Assembly: GCF_900176595.1 (NCBI RefSeq)
Contig: NZ_LT838813.1
Location: 4,296,001 to 4,360,000, forward strand
Direction: 5' to 3'
DNA from: Aquiflexum balticum DSM 16537
GTDB lineage: Bacteria; Bacteroidota; Bacteroidia; Cytophagales; Cyclobacteriaceae
DNA length: 64,000 nucleotides
Position numbers and translations under genes: made by a program. Below the pieces are notes generated by a model. The model had not been told where the DNA came from, ran no database searches, and worked only from the letters and a program-made list of their open reading frames with translations. This document shows positions 4,632 through 58,684 of the stretch, in pieces. Positions within the stretch are counted from its first letter, which is position 1; each line of letters starts with the position of its first letter.

Positions 4632-6149
4632 TTAAGCTTTCCCCACAAATACCGGCCAATCTTCCCTATTCTCAAAACTGTTTTTGAAAATAATCTCTGC
4701 ATGATCTCCTTCAAAGGTGATCAGAATGGTTTCGGTATGAGGGCTTTCATAGTATTTCAGTTTTATTTCAATGGTCTTTTCATCTTTCCAGGCATAACTT
4801 CCGGCAACTTTAAATGGGGCCAAACCATCAAGTTGGTTTTGGGCAAAGTGGAAAAGGTTGGGACCTTTTCTGTCTGTTGTTCCCAGAAGCCAGTTTCCCG
4901 AAGCCAGGAAGAATTCGTGAGACTCCTCTCCCACCTTCAAGGAAAGTTTAATGCTGGATTTCAGAAATTTTATATTAAATTCATTTACTATATTATTTTG
5001 ATTTTCAACAATATAGGTATTATTACTTATTGTATTTTCTAGTTTTTTATTTGATTTACTTTTTAGAGGAGAAAGAGAAAGATTTTTTAAATTTCTTTCA
5101 AGGTTTTTTTCAGAAGAAGGATCATTATCAAATGCAGGAAGTAGATGCTTCCAAACCAAATCCAATAAACCCTGCATGTCACTGGTTTCAGATGTGATGA
5201 CGATCACTCCTTCCAATTCAGGCAATATCAGGATATATTGTCCAAAGGCACCATCTGCCCGGTAGGAATTATACCTGCTTCGCCACATTTGGTAGCCATA
5301 TCCCTGAACCCAATCATTGGAAGCAATCCTTTCAGGTGAAGCATCGGGTTCCTGCATGATTTTCATGGTACTGGCTTCTTCAATCCAAGATTCCGGTAAA
5401 ATCTGTTTCCCGTTCCAATTCCCCTTTTGCAAAAACAATTGTCCAAGCTTGGCCATATCTTCGGTTTTTACCCTGATACCCCATCCCCCAACGGCAATCC
5501 CTTCCAAATCTTTCTCCCAATCCGCTCCGGATATACCCAATGGATCCAACAACCTTGGCTGAAGATATTCCAATAGATTTTGTCCGGTTACTTTTTGGAT
5601 GATGGCTGATAGCATATAGCTCGCAGAGGTATTGTATAGAAACTTGGTGCCGGGCTTGTCGGCAATGGGCAAATTCAAAAAAGCCTTGACCCAATCTTCC
5701 TGCGTAAAAACTTCCTGGTTGAAACTTTTGTCATGTCCTACGGTCATCGAAAGCAGGTCTTTTATTTCCAATTCCGCCAAATGGGGGCTAACTGTTGTCG
5801 GTAATGATTCCGGGAAAAAAGATATAACCTTATCGGTGACTTTCAGCTTTCCATCTGCAACTGCCAAACCTATTGCTGAAGCAGTGAATGTTTTGCTCAC
5901 AGAATACATGGTATGCTTGGTTTTCGGACCATAAGGCGCCCACCAACCCTCAGCTGCCACCTGACCATTTCTCAAAATCATCAGGCTGTGCATTTCATGT
6001 TTGCTTTCAGAGCCTACAGCATCCAAAAACTCTTGAATCCCTTTGCTGGAAATATTCAGTGCTTCGGGGGTATTTCTAGGTAAAGCGCTTTGGGCAAAAA
6101 TCTGAAAAGGAAACACGAATAGAATTAATGTTTGAAAGGTGGGTTTCAT
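4632..6149 (-). CDS. Serine hydrolase, class C beta-lactamase/transpeptidase-like
   Basis: 505 residues with a signal peptide (about residues 1-20, ending FAQ). The nucleophile motif SxxK is S83-V-S-K86 (MYSVSK). The YxN-type second motif appears in FLYNTSASY near residue 186, and a DGAFGQY segment near residue 300 corresponds to the third (HTG/KTG-like) box. About 130 C-terminal residues form an extra domain common in Bacteroidota homologues. Such exported esterase/peptidase-like proteins act on D-Ala peptides or small esters; true beta-lactamase activity cannot be inferred. The downstream region begins directly with a heptad repeat array. Confidence 0.88.
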   Translation of the reverse strand: MKPTFQTLILFVFPFQIFAQSALPRNTPEALNISSKGIQEFLDAVGSESKHEMHSLMILRNGQVAAEGWWAPYGPKTKHTMYSVSKTFTASAIGLAVADGKLKVTDKVISFFPESLPTTVSPHLAELEIKDLLSMTVGHDKSFNQEVFTQEDWVKAFLNLPIADKPGTKFLYNTSASYMLSAIIQKVTGQNLLEYLQPRLLDPLGISGADWEKDLEGIAVGGWGIRVKTEDMAKLGQLFLQKGNWNGKQILPESWIEEASTMKIMQEPDASPERIASNDWVQGYGYQMWRSRYNSYRADGAFGQYILILPELEGVIVITSETSDMQGLLDLVWKHLLPAFDNDPSSEKNLERNLKNLSLSPLKSKSNKKLENTISNNTYIVENQNNIVNEFNIKFLKSSIKLSLKVGEESHEFFLASGNWLLGTTDRKGPNLFHFAQNQLDGLAPFKVAGSYAWKDEKTIEIKLKYYESPHTETILITFEGDHAEIIFKNSFENREDWPVFVGKA

Positions 6150-52062: not shown

Positions 52063-52472
52063 TATAGTTAAATTAGGTTTGAAGATTTCAATGGAAAGAA
52101 TATACTTCTAAGAATTAAAGTAGAAATATACTTTAGGTGAAATAGAATGGGAAATTTAACTTTATTCTTTTTTATTCCAAGGATTTTTAAATGAATGGGG
52201 GAATGACGGGATTTCCAACTCCTGTACTATTCTTGAAGTCATTATTGAAAATCCCTCCTTTGGGATGGCTATTCAATTCCAAATCATCAAAAACGAATGG
52301 ATTTAAGAAAAAATACCCTGAACAAGGTATGGTATCTAACCTTTTAATTGAAGATATTGTGAGAACAAAAATGTGATACCTGCAACAGTTGTACTGCTAA
52401 TGGTATTTTAATCAAATAACAAAATGTTTTAATGAAGAAAACCTTTGACTTCAACATCAGAAGTAATTTACT
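52063..52472. other. 410-bp intergenic boundary at the left edge of the AT-rich island
   Basis: It separates the GMC operon (minus) from the AbiJ-like gene (plus). It contains a possible 61-codon ORF at 52191-52376 (start MNGGMTGF) with no recognised family and weak support. From about 52400 the sequence becomes visibly AT-richer, as it remains to about 58680. Confidence 0.5.
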
Positions 52473-53387
52473 ATGGCAACATATAATACATATTCAAAAA
52501 GAAATAATAGTCTACCTGATGTATTTAGATATGACATTTTATCATCAAAATTAAAATCACAAATTTTTCATATTTGGAACAAATATTTTAATCAAGAATG
52601 CTATGAAGATATACGACCTTTAATTTTTAAGAATATATATCAAATAATTTGTGAAGAAGAAGGAGTGAAAAATTTACACACCAATAGTCCATTTGGAATG
52701 CGAAGTAATGAAGTCGAAATTGAAGATTATTTTGAAAAAACAAGGTATGTCGAAAAAGAACTGGATATAATTGAAATTGTTTTTCATAAAATGACAACTG
52801 CAGAAGATGTAGGAAGCCGACAGTATAATTTTAAACCTTTTTATTTCTTTAAAGATGCAGTCATCGATCTTAACCAAAGATTTAGAGAAAATGGAGTTGG
52901 GTATGAATACAGCAATGGCAAAATTATAAGGGTAGATAACAAACTTCTACACAGAGAAAGCGTGCAGGAAACTTTACAACTTCTAACTGAACCAGAATTT
53001 GAAAATGCAAATGAAGAATATTTAAATGCACTTTCTCATTGTAGGAATGGAAGGAAATCTGAAAGCTTAAATGATTGTTTAAAAGCTTTCGAATCAACAA
53101 TGAAAATTATTTGTAAAATAAAAGGTTTTTCATTTAATGATTCTTATACAGCAAAACCTTTAATTAATACTTTACTATCAAATAAATTTATTCCAGAATA
53201 CCAACAGAGTCAATTTAATGCCATTAAGCAGCTTTTAGAAAGTAGTGTACCCACAATTAGAAATAAAAATAGCGGTCACGGACAAGGAGCAAAAAAAATT
53301 AACATAAGTGAGCCATTGGTGAATTATATGATATATTTAACAGGGTCTACTATTAGATATTTAATTGAAAACCTTAAAGAAGAATGA
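52473..53387 (+). CDS. AbiJ-like abortive infection protein (STM4504/CBY_0614 type)
   Basis: 304 residues, cytoplasmic. The N-terminal part (about 15-150, from LPDVFRYDILSSKLKSQIFHI to RYVEKELDIIEIVF) resembles the AbiJ-NTD4 domain. The C-terminal part (about 185-304, ALSHCRNGRKSESLNDCLKA, then PTIRNKNSGHGQG) resembles the helical domain found in STM4504/CBY_0614 family proteins, with RNxxxxHG reminiscent of HEPN/Abi-type RNase-like proteins. Such proteins abort phage infection, probably by toxic RNA cleavage. AT-rich, unlike the genes to its left, suggesting acquisition. It is 279 bp upstream of the helicase-nuclease, so it may have its own promoter. Confidence 0.65.
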   Translation: MATYNTYSKRNNSLPDVFRYDILSSKLKSQIFHIWNKYFNQECYEDIRPLIFKNIYQIICEEEGVKNLHTNSPFGMRSNEVEIEDYFEKTRYVEKELDIIEIVFHKMTTAEDVGSRQYNFKPFYFFKDAVIDLNQRFRENGVGYEYSNGKIIRVDNKLLHRESVQETLQLLTEPEFENANEEYLNALSHCRNGRKSESLNDCLKAFESTMKIICKIKGFSFNDSYTAKPLINTLLSNKFIPEYQQSQFNAIKQLLESSVPTIRNKNSGHGQGAKKINISEPLVNYMIYLTGSTIRYLIENLKEE

Positions 53388-53666
53388 ATTACTTCAGCAA
53401 CATTGTGTTTTCTTTAAGCCGGGTTTAATTGGTTATCTCCCTATGGCTGTTAATGTTTACAGGAACTTAATGCCAGTCGTGGTGTAAAACGTATACCCAT
53501 TATTAACCTAATTAGGTTTAGGTTAAGGGAGCAAGATTTTAAAAGTAACAAACTAAAATGATAAAATAGTGACATTACATACAGGCACATTTCTTCCCTC
53601 GACACACCGGGGACCTCTTCGCAATCAAAAGAACCTGAAATTTTGCAAACGCACTTAGGATCAAGA
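53388..53666. other. Intergenic region with a 14-bp palindrome
   Basis: Between the AbiJ-like gene and the helicase. AACCTAATTAGGTT (53505-53518) is a perfect 14-bp palindrome. The overlapping ATTAACCTAATT (53502-53513) recurs at 58619-58630. Local base composition and word use differ from the coding DNA on either side. It may hold the helicase promoter or a recombination remnant. Confidence 0.5.
53502..53513 (+). repeat. Left copy of a 12-bp direct repeat flanking the helicase operon
   Basis: ATTAACCTAATT here and at 58619-58630, on either side of the helicase/EF-Tu-like gene pair. Short and AT-rich, so chance occurrence cannot be excluded. Confidence 0.35.
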
Positions 53667-56600
53667 ATGGAACTGACAGAAAAATTATTAAATGAACTTC
53701 AAAGGAGACTGAAGATAGGTAATCGCAGGGGCGTTCATCTAAATGCAATACCTGCAAATTCAAGATACAAGTTTGACTTAAACAGACTTTCTCATATTGA
53801 CAAGAATCTTCCTGATAGTTTTATAAAAAGTTTACTCTCTGAACAGCCATTAAAATTCAGAATTAGTTGGAAGGACAATGTTCCAGACTTAAATACACTT
53901 TTTGAAGAAGACCAAACCCAATTAGTTAGGATTACAAAATCCTTTGAAAATTTAATCAATCAGACGGAAGCGATTGAATCAGAAAAAGGAATCAACACCT
54001 TCGGATTCGGTTTTCCAATTCTTGTTAGACGAGACCAATCAGACAACAAACTCACGGTTGCTCCTATTCTAATTTGGTCATTGCGAATAAAAAGAACCAA
54101 AGAATTCAACACTTGGGAAATTAACAGAAATGAAGACGACCCGATTTATTTGAATGAAGTTTTAATCAATCATTTACAATCGGATTCAAATATTGAGATT
54201 GAGCAGATTCCAAGTGAAATGTTAGATGATGGGCTAATCACAAAGGATGAATTACTTGAAGTATGTGTGAAACTTATTAAGGAAATAAACACTTCCGTCC
54301 CGTCTGACATTAAAGAAGCGTTTATTAAGAAGCTTGACAACGTTGTTTCAATTGGCGATAAAAATCATTACGAAAAACTTCCTATTAATTCCACCAATGC
54401 ACTTATTGACTTTGGTGGATTGTTTTCAATTTTTGAAGTCCAAAAACAAAACATCATAAATGACTATGGTAATTTGATGGATTTAGAAGGTCTAACTATT
54501 GACCTTGACGACCTAGAAAATCATACTTTTCAACCAATTTCATCTGTAGAAACAGACCCTTCACAACAAGGGATTTTACATTCTTTAGAAGCAACAAGAA
54601 ATATTCTTATTCAAGGTCCTCCAGGAACAGGAAAAAGTCAAACATTATCTGCAATCCTTATCAATGCATTAGAGAACCAGAGAAAGACTATTGTAGTTTG
54701 CGAAAAAAGAACGGCTTTGGAAGTCTTACATAATACACTAATCGAGAAAAACCTAAATTATCAATGTGTTTTAATTCGAGACATTGTAAAAGACCGTAAA
54801 ACGGTTGTTGATTCGGTTAGAGACAGAGTTGACAACTCATCTTATCGAAGATACCGCTACACATATTCCAAGGAATCACTTGACAACCTAATTAAAAAAG
54901 CCAAAAGTCTTATTGAGTCCATTAATGGGAAGCATAAAAAGCTAGATGAAAAGTTATTAGGAGACAAATCTTGGACTGACATTGTAGGTACTCTTTTGTC
55001 TGAACTCAATGGAATTAGCGAAGACCATACTTTAAACATTGATAAATCGCAATTCAAGTATAATTCTCAAGAATTAAACGAACTTATTGAATTAGTTCAG
55101 AAGGGTCAAAGTCTCTACTCAAGTTACCAATCTTACGATTCAACTTCATTTCTCAACCCAAAAAAATTAGTTGGAGACAATCCATATGTTATTGAGCAAG
55201 GAATTAACGATTCATTTGAAGAATATGAAAAGGCTCTTCGAAAAATAAGTGAACTAGAATCCAAATATAAAAGCGAGTATTTCAAACTAAGAAAAGCTGA
55301 ACTTTCAGAGCAAATCCTAAGTGGGAAACAGATACAAGATTCAATAATTGCAATTTATACGGAGCATAAATCAAATCCTGATTTTCTTAATGAAGAAAAA
55401 ACTAATGGTTTACTGTATAAGGCGATAACAATTTTCTCTAAGCCAAAAAAGAAGGTCGTCCAAGACCAAAAGCAAATCAAAAACCTTTTTACAAGTCTTT
55501 CAAATCATTATTCAAAGTGTGCAGACCTTAAAGATTTCCAAATTTCCCAATCCATTAAAAGTAATTTGAAAAGGATTGATGAATCCAACAATCTGATTGA
55601 GCAGATTAGTTCTGATTTTCATTCCAAAATTGAAAATGAATATAATTCAATTGATGTTATAGAATTTTCAACTCCTGAATATCAAACGGAAACTCTAAAA
55701 TCTTTAAAAGAAAATTACTCGGTTTTACGAGAGAAAATCAAAGCTGATAATTGGACGCTTCATAAAATACAAGCCAATGAATTCAAAGGCTTCATTAAGG
55801 TAGTTGAAAAAATCATACAGGAGAGAAATGACTACTTCAACAATGAAAATGACATTTTCACCACAGAATTTAAATGGTTTCAATTCTACAATGGTCTTTC
55901 TAATGAAGCCAAACTTCTTGTCAATGAATTGAAAGGTAAAAAGGATTGGCGAAAGTCTTTTCTAATCCATTATTTAAATTCAATGCTCGTAAATTCCGCA
56001 AACGTTGATTTACCAACAAATGACTCTGAACACATAGAGCTAAACGGTACTTTGGGTGGTTTAGAGAAAGAGCAATTGAAATATATCCGTGAATTTTGGT
56101 TCTCAAAGCAAATTGATACAACAAGAGATTTTGAACAACGAAACTCAAACCTATCGGTTGAGAATTTATATAACAAGCGGAGTAGTAACAGATTTAAGCG
56201 TCTTTCATTACGCCAAATAGTTCAATATGATGCTGATTTGTTTACAACCTTTTTCCCGATAATCCTTACTTCGCCTGATGTTGCAAGTAACTTATTTAAA
56301 GGGATGAATGGTTATTTTGACATTGTAATGTTTGATGAAGCAAGTCAGCTACGCTTGGAAGATAACTTACCTGCAATTTTGAAAGGAAAGCAAATAATAA
56401 TTGCAGGAGATGAACACCAAATGCCTCCATCAAATTATTTTAGTAAAGTCTTTGATGGTACAATTGAAGACGAAGACGACATTGATGAAGAAGATGAAAT
56501 TGTTGTAGATAGAGATAATATCCTATTGTCTTGTGAATCCCTTTTAGACTTTGGTTCAGAACTTAATTTTGAGAAACGTCACCTTGATTTTCATTACAGG

Positions 56601-58055
56601 TCAAGACACCCCTACCTTATAGATTTTTCAAACTACGCCTTTTACAATCAAAGACTTAAACCATTACCAAATACATTTGATTATACACCAATTAAGTATA
56701 TCCAAGTAAATGGTACTTTTTCAGACCACATCAATGATGCAGAAGCTGAAATGGTCTTGTCACTTATTGAGAACAATATAAATCGACTTCCAAACGGAGA
56801 ATATCCAACAGTCGGTATTGCTACTTTTAATATTGCTCAACGGAATCATATAAAAAGTAAAATCTTAGAAAGGCAAAAATTCTCAAAGTTTGAAGAGTTC
56901 AATGCCAAAATCCAAGAATTAGAAGAAAACGGAATGTTCATTAAGAACTTAGAAAATATTCAAGGAGATGAACGAGATGTTATTATTCTCTCAACCACTT
57001 ATGGTCCGGGAAAAGACGGAAGATTTGCACAGCGTTTTGGTCCGATTAATCATTCCAAAGGCTACAAACTTTTAAACGTAATTATCACAAGAGCTAAGTA
57101 TAAAGTTTATGTATGTTCATCCGTTCCAGAAACAGCATTTATGAACTACAAAGATTTTCTAATAACGGAAGGCTCTAACAATAAACGAGCAGTTTTCTAC
57201 GCATATTTAGCATACAGCAAAGCAGTAAGTGAAGGAAATAATGATTCAAGAATAGGAATCTTAACTGCACTTAGCGAGAATTCAACCAAAAGTACATCTT
57301 TCAATGTTGGCAGTTTTGGAGAGTTAGAATCACCTTTTGAAGAAGAAGTTTATCAGCGATTAGTTGATGAAGTGGACGAATCAAAACTGATTCCGCAAAT
57401 GAAAGTGTCAGAGTTTCGAATAGATATTGTATACGACCCAAAAATTGCAGGTGTGCCAAAGATTGCAATTGAATGTGATGGAGCAAAGTATCATTCAAGC
57501 AGAGAAGCATATTTGCACGACCGACACAGACAAAAAATTCTAGAAAATCACGGTTTTGTATTCCACAGGATTTGGAGCACGAATTGGTGGCGAAATCCAC
57601 AGAAAGAAACAAAACGGTTGATTGAGTTTATAAGAAGTGTTGAATCAAGAAATGACTACAATCTGATTGACCATTCAGAAACTTCATTGGCATTTACTGA
57701 CCACATTGAAATGGTTGAAAGTTATGTTGCCCAAACACTAATTTTTGATTCAGAAAGGGAAGCTGCGACAATAAAAAACATTCAAAGATTAGAAGAAAAG
57801 TTATTACATTTCTTTAAAGACCAAATCATTTTGGGTAGCAAAGTAACGGTCAAGTATTTAAACAATGGAAAAAATATTAAGGTACATATAGTTGAAAAAG
57901 CGGACGAGAATGAATTATTTAATGGAATACAAAAAATAAGCTTTAAATCCCCATTAGCGTCATCAATTCTTGGACATACAGTTGGGGACATTGTAAAAGT
58001 TGGAAACCTTGACAATTATGTGGAAATTTTAGAATTAAATAATAAAGGAGAATGA
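53667..58055 (+). CDS. SF1 helicase with C-terminal PD-(D/E)XK nuclease and GreA/GreB-C-like domain
   Basis: 1462 residues from the ATG at 53667; a TTG start 24 bp upstream is rejected. The N-terminal region resembles DUF4011-type segments. Helicase motifs: Walker A GPPGTGKS near residue 318, Walker B MFDEASQ near 889 with GDEHQMPPSNY near 914, FHYRSRHP near 974 and IQGDERDVIILS near 1098. A Vsr/MTES_1575-like nuclease lies at about 1222-1340 (FRIDIVYD and IAIECDGAKYH carry the PD-(D/E)XK Asp/Glu, with RHRQKILENHGFVFHRIWS after). The last 80 residues (KVTVKYLNNGKNIKVHI; SPLASSILGHTVGDIVKV) match the C-terminal domain of GreA/GreB. By architecture an antiphage nuclease-helicase. The gene overlaps the next by 4 bp. 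Confidence 0.8.
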   Translation: MELTEKLLNELQRRLKIGNRRGVHLNAIPANSRYKFDLNRLSHIDKNLPDSFIKSLLSEQPLKFRISWKDNVPDLNTLFEEDQTQLVRITKSFENLINQTEAIESEKGINTFGFGFPILVRRDQSDNKLTVAPILIWSLRIKRTKEFNTWEINRNEDDPIYLNEVLINHLQSDSNIEIEQIPSEMLDDGLITKDELLEVCVKLIKEINTSVPSDIKEAFIKKLDNVVSIGDKNHYEKLPINSTNALIDFGGLFSIFEVQKQNIINDYGNLMDLEGLTIDLDDLENHTFQPISSVETDPSQQGILHSLEATRNILIQGPPGTGKSQTLSAILINALENQRKTIVVCEKRTALEVLHNTLIEKNLNYQCVLIRDIVKDRKTVVDSVRDRVDNSSYRRYRYTYSKESLDNLIKKAKSLIESINGKHKKLDEKLLGDKSWTDIVGTLLSELNGISEDHTLNIDKSQFKYNSQELNELIELVQKGQSLYSSYQSYDSTSFLNPKKLVGDNPYVIEQGINDSFEEYEKALRKISELESKYKSEYFKLRKAELSEQILSGKQIQDSIIAIYTEHKSNPDFLNEEKTNGLLYKAITIFSKPKKKVVQDQKQIKNLFTSLSNHYSKCADLKDFQISQSIKSNLKRIDESNNLIEQISSDFHSKIENEYNSIDVIEFSTPEYQTETLKSLKENYSVLREKIKADNWTLHKIQANEFKGFIKVVEKIIQERNDYFNNENDIFTTEFKWFQFYNGLSNEAKLLVNELKGKKDWRKSFLIHYLNSMLVNSANVDLPTNDSEHIELNGTLGGLEKEQLKYIREFWFSKQIDTTRDFEQRNSNLSVENLYNKRSSNRFKRLSLRQIVQYDADLFTTFFPIILTSPDVASNLFKGMNGYFDIVMFDEASQLRLEDNLPAILKGKQIIIAGDEHQMPPSNYFSKVFDGTIEDEDDIDEEDEIVVDRDNILLSCESLLDFGSELNFEKRHLDFHYRSRHPYLIDFSNYAFYNQRLKPLPNTFDYTPIKYIQVNGTFSDHINDAEAEMVLSLIENNINRLPNGEYPTVGIATFNIAQRNHIKSKILERQKFSKFEEFNAKIQELEENGMFIKNLENIQGDERDVIILSTTYGPGKDGRFAQRFGPINHSKGYKLLNVIITRAKYKVYVCSSVPETAFMNYKDFLITEGSNNKRAVFYAYLAYSKAVSEGNNDSRIGILTALSENSTKSTSFNVGSFGELESPFEEEVYQRLVDEVDESKLIPQMKVSEFRIDIVYDPKIAGVPKIAIECDGAKYHSSREAYLHDRHRQKILENHGFVFHRIWSTNWWRNPQKETKRLIEFIRSVESRNDYNLIDHSETSLAFTDHIEMVESYVAQTLIFDSEREAATIKNIQRLEEKLLHFFKDQIILGSKVTVKYLNNGKNIKVHIVEKADENELFNGIQKISFKSPLASSILGHTVGDIVKVGNLDNYVEILELNNKGE

Positions 58056-58333
58056 GAAAGGAATTAGTTATGGTTATTGATGAGGTTTTTTTCATTATTG
58101 GTAAAGGAATAATCGTCTTAGGAACTATACAAAATGAAAAAGTTGAAGTTGGTCAAAAGGTAATTGTAGATCCTGAATATTTACCAGAGTTTGAAACCAA
58201 AATTAAAGGCATTGAAGCTTTTAGAAAGAAATTAAATTTTGCCAAACAAAATGACAATGTTGGTCTTCTTTTAGATAAATTGAACAAGAATCAAATTAAA
58301 AAGAAAATGAAAATATATTCTGTTTTATTTTAA
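58052..58333 (+). CDS. Free-standing EF-Tu domain II-like small protein
   Basis: 93 residues. The order and spacing of residues follow domain II of EF-Tu: VFFIIGKGIIVLGTI, then VEVGQKVIV, then KIKGIEAFRKKLNFAKQNDN, then VGLLLDKLNKNQIKKKM. There is no G domain. A ribosome-binding-like AAAGGAG ends 1 bp before the start and the ATG overlaps the helicase stop (ATGA), so it is translationally coupled to the nuclease-helicase. The function is unknown; it could act as an EF-Tu mimic, sensor or effector in the same system. Confidence 0.7.
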   Translation: MRKELVMVIDEVFFIIGKGIIVLGTIQNEKVEVGQKVIVDPEYLPEFETKIKGIEAFRKKLNFAKQNDNVGLLLDKLNKNQIKKKMKIYSVLF

Positions 58334-58483
58334 ACTAAACTTTTCCTACTTATATAATTCACATTCTCACCTGAGGACTACAAAACAAAATTTTCGACTT
58401 AGTTTACGAGATTAAGAAAAGGAATTGAAAGCAATAGTTGGTGCCATCTAGTATATGGTAAAGTGGATTGACCGGAAAATTTA

Positions 58484-58527
58484 AAGTTTACACACTTATC
58501 GGGATAGTGTCCTTATCGGGATAGTGT
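58484..58527. mobile_element. Possible IS256-like terminal remnant with a 17-bp tandem duplication
   Basis: The word GTTTACACACTTATCGGGAT starts near 58487, and its second half is repeated with a 17-bp period. TTTACACA plus a GGGA core is common at IS256-family ends. Only one end is visible and the match is by eye. Confidence 0.3.
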
Positions 58528-58618
58528 AAGAAAAAAATTTGTGCCATTTCTAGACACTTCAAAAGTAAAGCCTCTCTTCGCTCCAAAGTAGTAAACAAAA
58601 GGCATAGTTTACCAATGG

Positions 58619-58630
58619 ATTAACCTAATT
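58619..58630 (+). repeat. Right copy of the 12-bp direct repeat
   Basis: ATTAACCTAATT, identical to 53502-53513. It lies 286 bp after the end of the EF-Tu-like gene, near the right limit of the AT-rich island. Confidence 0.35.
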
Positions 58631-58684
58631 GTTCAAAATAAGTAGATAAAACTATATACATTAAACTGTATACACATCAACCCC

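Follow-up and report, generated by a model that had tools for sequence, protein, structure and literature searches.

The closest described relatives of the protein considered here are defence-type helicase-nucleases, namely PDC-S37, a candidate system of PADLOC, and Hhe, which is said to have been validated as a defence system by Gao et al. in 2020. A gene for a protein of this kind (P0001) was analyzed in a 64,000-nucleotide stretch of the Aquiflexum balticum DSM 16537 genome (NZ_LT838813.1, positions 4,296,001 to 4,360,000), hereafter the window. Like Hhe, P0001 possesses DUF4011, an AAA_11/AAA_12 superfamily 1 (SF1) helicase and an MTES_1575/Vsr-like nuclease in the same order, and it fits the broad DUF4011-helicase-Vsr type. 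We know of no account of how proteins of this type choose the DNA to be cut. Unlike the sole Hhe protein checked (L184), in which no such match was detected, P0001 ends in a domain of the GreA/GreB C-terminal type (Gre-C).

According to the passages of PMC8195603 that concern them, conflict proteins combining tetratricopeptide repeats (TPR), GreA/B-C and a PIN domain use GreA/B-C, as proposed there, to engage the polymerase through the beta-prime coiled coil, and some of them bear restriction endonuclease effectors.

Identity of the C-terminal domain and its contact motif

The C-terminus of P0001 scored above the Pfam cut-off for PF01272, the GreA_GreB C-terminal domain (46.5 bits against 26.9). 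In the fold comparison it showed the FKBP-like fold of the Gre/Gfh1 C-domain; the match was Gfh1 as solved on RNA polymerase, and other FKBP-type folds matched less well. Profile and fold thus confirm that the C-terminus is a Gre-C domain. This was a claim of the original prediction, made from the DNA letters, which named a C-terminus free of any Gre-C or FKBP-type match as its refutation; a match was found, and the claim stands.

The N-terminal coiled coil of GreA, with its acidic tip, was not found in P0001 among the Pfam matches listed, and the NCBIfam GreA models align to the protein solely from model position 76 on. A variable, low-confidence linker precedes Gre-C. Its identity to 10 relatives is 8-41%, and the predicted local distance difference test (pLDDT) value is below 50 over most of its length. 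Upstream, AAA_12 was matched at residues 968-1150 (Pfam E 5.3e-12), and putative catalytic roles in the nuclease are assigned by analogy to D1253, E1269, D1271 and H1276. The domain positions are given in Table 1.

When the Gre-C domains of 17 fused proteins (P0001 and 16 relatives) were aligned, the Pro and Leu of the SPL motif were among the four most conserved columns, each being present in 16 of 17. The Ser, counted by eye on the alignment, was S in 11, T in two, A in two, K in one and R in one. As the relevant passages of the sources describe it, the globular domains of Gre factors contact the beta-prime rim helices (PMC7527559), and the docking site of Gre-C is the secondary-channel coiled coil of beta-prime (PMC8195603, PMC7527559). 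The S127E change of the SPL Ser in MtbGre is reported in a passage of PMC3132773 to abolish both the activity and the RNA polymerase pull-down. MtbGre acts specifically with the polymerase of its own species, according to the same paper.

Distribution of the fusion

The search for other Gre-C fusions to SF1 helicases, which the original prediction had suggested, yielded the 16 fused relatives. Because Gre-C ends a helicase-nuclease in all of these, an accident or an annotation error as the source of the fusion was rejected. A nuclease and Gre-C profile was used to survey 395 Bacteroidota genomes, and the fusion was found in at least seven of them, the own genome counted; this is a lower bound, since the profile might not detect Gre-C domains that have diverged further. 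The genome G025, of the same family, also has a fused protein. In the genome-collection scan, six of the best 80 of 310 relatives were fused (Labilibaculum, Marinilabiliaceae, Bacteroidales, Flavobacteriales, Lacinutrix algicola and Saprospiraceae), and the profile that matched these six had been built from other sequences (E 7e-28 to 4e-13). Two plasmid proteins, from Rhizobium leguminosarum and Microvirga ossetica (L182 and L183), were also fused; they are the two with at least 80% query cover among 318 matching plasmid records. No match to P0001 or to the Gre-C pair alignment A3 was detected in IMG/VR, and the broader alignment A4 gave eight loci there, one of which (L175) carries Gre-C.

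Eleven fused proteins (P0001 and 10 relatives) were scanned with Pfam, and nine passed the PF01272 cut-off; P0011 (22.5 bits) and L182 (25.6 bits) were below it. Three make-ups were observed among the fused proteins: one like that in the window, one of longer DUF4011 proteins (P0010, L175 and L182), and one of helicases with no DUF4011 match (P0011 and L183). In the own genome, two PF01272 domains were detected at E <= 0.01, those of GreA and P0001. The other large helicase of the P0001 kind in this genome (a 1316-aa frame, C1:2856708-2859575) has no Gre-C at that threshold. In Pseudomonadota, the nuclease-Gre-C profile A5 matched 50 of 398 genomes; two matches were small proteins, and the others were 51 helicase-type places in 48 genomes.

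Some loci showed particular arrangements. At L063:352-5739 (-), an SF1 helicase without a DUF4011 match is followed by an MTES_1575 nuclease, a stretch of about 250 residues with no Pfam match at E <= 0.001, and then Gre-C. In the protein at L060:2277-6707 (-), the linker contains a short stretch duplicated in frame (SNSIVQRNVVM), right ahead of Gre-C. At L226:2525-2836 (+), a 103-aa open reading frame (ORF), which overlaps a large helicase-nuclease gene at its end, gave a weak Gre-C match below the Pfam cut-off (0.0039, 17.6 bits); possibly, the same anchor is supplied there in trans. The neighbour of the helicase at L221 is Rnk.

Recurrence of the fusion and selection on Gre-C

A tree of 146 helicase-nuclease cores was constructed from 446 columns, Gre-C excluded, by quick maximum likelihood (LG+G4, one short search). 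The 17 Gre-C bearers need eight trait changes on it, at least six of which are forced by branches with Shimodaira-Hasegawa approximate likelihood-ratio test (SH-aLRT) values of at least 95; long branches, including that of L183, meet in this tree, and gain and loss are not distinguishable. One loss is likely in L076, which shares 61% identity with P0001 in the best segment and stops within the linker. Of the 10 rows in the window's starred set, one lacks Gre-C; the tree output gives that row no name, and it is taken to be L076.

The ratio of nonsynonymous to synonymous substitution rates (dN/dS) between P0001 and its relative L058 was 0.056 in Gre-C, 0.396 in the linker, 0.013 in the nuclease and 0.059 overall, values that are rough because dS is high (0.48-1.44 by part). 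In eight of 10 relatives, the identity of Gre-C was 46-55%, as compared with 64-86% in RecA2 and the nuclease; L082 and P0009 were lower throughout. From these sequence comparisons, Gre-C seems to have been added to helicase-Vsr proteins more than once and to have been kept by selection.

Kinship with defence families

The best PADLOC matches of P0001 were PDC-S37 (E 2.2e-143) and Hhe (6.1e-82). The PDC-S37 model, for which the tool supplies no cut-off, was matched in three stretches, the best covering 574-1355 of 1550. The best NCBIfam matches were also anti-phage models, both below their cut-offs: ProA (NF058533) at 442.8 bits for a cut-off of 1500, and Hhe (NF042953) at 366.5 bits, far below 2000. 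The C-terminal 89 aa of P0001 lie outside the matches to the PDC-S37 and Hhe profiles of PADLOC. A PADLOC match of the C-terminus to PD-Lambda-5 (E 0.0031) was not adopted as its identity. In the part of the source that describes it, PD-Lambda-5 is a compacted version of restriction-modification plus abortive infection labelled methyltransferase, and that description does not mention GreA.

The genomic island and the neighbouring genes

The helicase gene stands with two other genes in an island (Table 1). In blastn against the same-genus genome G001, similarity on the left ends at 52210 and resumes on the right at 58679. A clean empty site in G001 was rejected; since about 1.5 kb of other sequence lies between the conserved flanks there, the site is variable, not empty. 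The GC content was 27.8% in the AbiJ-like gene, 33.1% in the helicase gene and 25.5% in the EF-Tu-like ORF, against 42.0-43.9% in the flanking genes.

L058, from a genome of another family, shows 86.7% DNA identity over 4468 bp. Because this similarity covers the helicase gene and 90 nt upstream, and neither neighbour, the shared unit looks like a single gene, as judged by sequence; the L058 contig stops about 436 nt past the helicase gene. The neighbours of the helicase gene vary among the relatives whose flanks were read. L061 and L175 adjoin genes that, judged by eye, encode type I restriction-modification: on the IMG/VR contig L175:2-13116 such genes directly follow the Gre-C helicase-nuclease, and in L061 they lie upstream.

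The AbiJ-like protein matched its Pfam families at 6.4e-33 and 5.9e-27 and its NCBIfam family at 2.7e-82 (276 bits against 150), and gave a weak PADLOC match to PDC-S32 (9.1e-7). As a partner of the helicase this gene was not retained, none having been found beside the relatives. The EF-Tu-like ORF has 34% identity to the genome's own EF-Tu; its matches to NCBIfam EF-Tu (E 4.1e-13, below the whole-protein cut-off) and Pfam GTP_EFTU_D2 (3e-5) were both below cut-off. Matches to EF-Tu domain II occur in 264 of 295 genomes of the class; among the matches listed, the window ORF is the sole stand-alone one, and the others lie in frames of at least 248 aa. Plasmids (20 records) and phages (seven records) matched about three quarters of the ORF, the named matches being tuf, and no match was detected in IMG/VR. 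A role as a conserved partner is unsupported, since no such ORF was found in 154 sequences, the window's own copies aside.

Four Gre-C helicase genes, which come from different taxa and represent two helicase make-ups, are followed 13-24 nt past their stop codon by an imperfect palindrome of 65-79 nt. L058 has a second copy, together with an 84-nt repeat, on the other side of the gene, about 4.8 kb apart. The other palindrome matches among 229 sequences were solely overlapping stretches of the L058 place. The palindrome looks like a cassette boundary of some type; integron attC as the identity of the L058 repeats was unsupported by the core-site rule.

Table 1. Positions of the features in the window and of the palindromes in related loci
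Feature	Position	Strand	Basis
Genomic island, three genes	52211..58678		blastn synteny and GC content
AbiJ_NTD4-DUF7014 protein (STM4504/CBY_0614 family), candidate abortive-infection gene	52473..53387	+	Pfam, NCBIfam
P0001 gene: 1462-aa DUF4011-SF1 helicase-Vsr-like nuclease-Gre-C protein	53667..58055	+	ATG start the same in relative L058
DUF4011, C-terminal half of profile, residues 87-170	53925..54176	+	Pfam PF13195, E 8.4e-6, 26.3 bits against 22.2
Walker A GPPGTGKS, residues 317-324, first RecA-like domain	54615..54638	+	Sequence; AAA_11 E 2.7e-13
Second helicase half, motif DEASQ at residue 890 to AAA_12 end at residue 1150	56334..57116	+	Motif positions
Vsr-like PD-(D/E)xK nuclease domain, residues 1224-1322	57336..57632	+	
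Fast-evolving linker, residues 1326-1383	57642..57815	+	dN/dS 0.396; low pLDDT
GreA/GreB C-terminal-type domain, residues 1384-1462 (Pfam match 1384-1449)	57816..58052	+	Profile and fold
S1428-P-L-A, counterpart of the Gre SPLG motif	57948..57959	+	Alignment
93-aa stand-alone EF-Tu domain II ORF	58052..58333	+	ATG overlaps helicase stop codon (ATGA)
Palindrome copies	L058:347-421 and 5153-5225; L063:264-328; L074:7194-7258; L075:4834-4911		

Proposed mechanism and alternatives

From the computed profile and fold of Gre-C, its recurrent fusion, its low dN/dS and the conservation of SPL, we lean towards reading P0001 as a horizontally moved, single-gene, defence-type helicase-nuclease tethered to RNA polymerase. 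We infer the defence part from the kinship in PADLOC and NCBIfam, the low-GC island at a variable site and the near-copy in L058. Recruitment to RNA polymerase, which the original prediction had proposed, gains indirect support from the contact motif, the purifying selection, the recurrent fusion and the Gfh1 fold, the docking itself being presumed; phage templates as the target, also proposed there, are suggested by two things, the kinship and the mobile island.

In the proposed mechanism, Gre-C, lacking the coiled coil that stimulates cleavage, would be an anchor holding on to the beta-prime coiled coil where the secondary channel opens, and the flexible linker would be a leash by which the helicase and the Vsr-like nuclease could reach the DNA of the transcribed template, most likely that of a phage or a plasmid. 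The trigger would probably be a polymerase that is stalled, backtracked or colliding with replication, leaving single strands or R-loops exposed; the helicase, by unwinding, may then bring the strands to the nuclease to be cut. As a guess, phage and host templates might be discriminated by the polymerase state or by replication-transcription collisions.

Several observations weigh against a tethered defence nuclease. The Bacteroidota survey showed the fusion in at least seven of 395 genomes, and no fused Gre-C was found in the helicase frames of 30 checked Pseudomonadota loci. Flammeovirga L023, the near relative L076 and the annotated Hhe L184 are relatives without Gre-C. The SPL Ser is replaced by T, A, K or R in six of 17 domains, so RNA polymerase binding is perhaps altered or lost in some. 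Furthermore, the AbiJ-like and EF-Tu-like genes are not found beside the relatives, and neither supports a multi-gene system.

Alternatively, Gre-C could be a plain FKBP-like module that serves dimerisation, auto-inhibition or the binding of some partner besides RNA polymerase. In favour of this, four of 17 domains have A, K or R at the position of the contact Ser, Gre-C has diverged further than the catalytic parts in eight of 10 relatives, and FKBP-type folds match too, although less well. We consider this explanation unlikely. Another possibility accepts the same docking evidence (profile, SPL motif, dN/dS and fold) and places Gre-C on RNA polymerase as a guard that senses hijacking; phage factors would displace or alter it, and the released helicase-nuclease would cause abortive DNA damage. 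A passage of PMC8195603 reads GreA/B-C in the TPR-GreA/B-C-PIN proteins similarly, as acting on polymerases hijacked for viral DNA with an apoptotic fallback. However, no sequence sign of an inhibited resting state was seen in P0001, nor a separate suicide effector domain among the Pfam matches listed, and a guard appears quite improbable. PcrA, an SF1 helicase bound to RNA polymerase via a small C-terminal Tudor domain and having an anti-R-loop role (in the part of PMC8318588 that describes it), is a precedent for the tethering of an SF1 helicase, and equally for a housekeeping function: a helicase-nuclease for transcription-coupled repair or R-loop removal, as with PcrA/UvrD, whose nuclease is of the type of Vsr, a mismatch repair enzyme. 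The patchy distribution, the foreign composition of the island at a variable site, the near-copy in another family and the best profile matches, which are defence families, make this very unlikely.

A broader and more doubtful idea, which we offer tentatively, is RNA-polymerase-guided restriction: a class of defence nucleases may choose its target by the state of the transcribing polymerase, sensed by Gre-C anchored where the secondary channel opens, and not by DNA sequence or modification, and may have arisen several times through the addition of Gre-C to helicase-Vsr nucleases.

Comparison with known systems

The original prediction knew of no described system with this exact architecture. 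None was found among the matches listed in open-licence PubMed Central (PMC), outside which subscription papers mostly lie: no paper there had Gre-C fused to a DUF4011 helicase-nuclease, and GreA was absent from the further defence-system papers that were searched by word. Yet the idea is not wholly new, since the relevant passages of PMC8195603 already predict GreA/B-C as the polymerase-engaging part of conflict proteins, in another architecture.

Like GreA, GreB, Gfh1 and Rnk, P0001 has a C-terminal FKBP-like domain with an SPL motif; in contrast to them, no Gre coiled coil was seen, and the domain is appended to a 1462-residue helicase-nuclease. PcrA and UvrD belong to another branch of SF1 than P0001 and, to our knowledge, have no nuclease. 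As proposed here, P0001 resembles them in being an SF1 helicase brought to the polymerase by a small C-terminal domain, whereas theirs is, in the part of the source concerned, a Tudor domain contacting the beta subunit (PMC8318588). With the GreA/B-C-TPR-PIN proteins, as described in part of PMC8195603, P0001 shares GreA/B-C inside a conflict-type protein; their constant core is TPR, GreA/B-C and PIN, whereas P0001 has an SF1 helicase and a Vsr-like nuclease, and neither TPR nor PIN was found among its Pfam matches listed. With a putative Gre-C anchor that was apparently added more than once and retained under selection, the idea that RNA polymerase steers some defence nucleases becomes testable by one mutation, at S1428; if this is true, the 2021 prediction that GreA/B-C lets conflict proteins engage the polymerase would extend to a second kind of protein.

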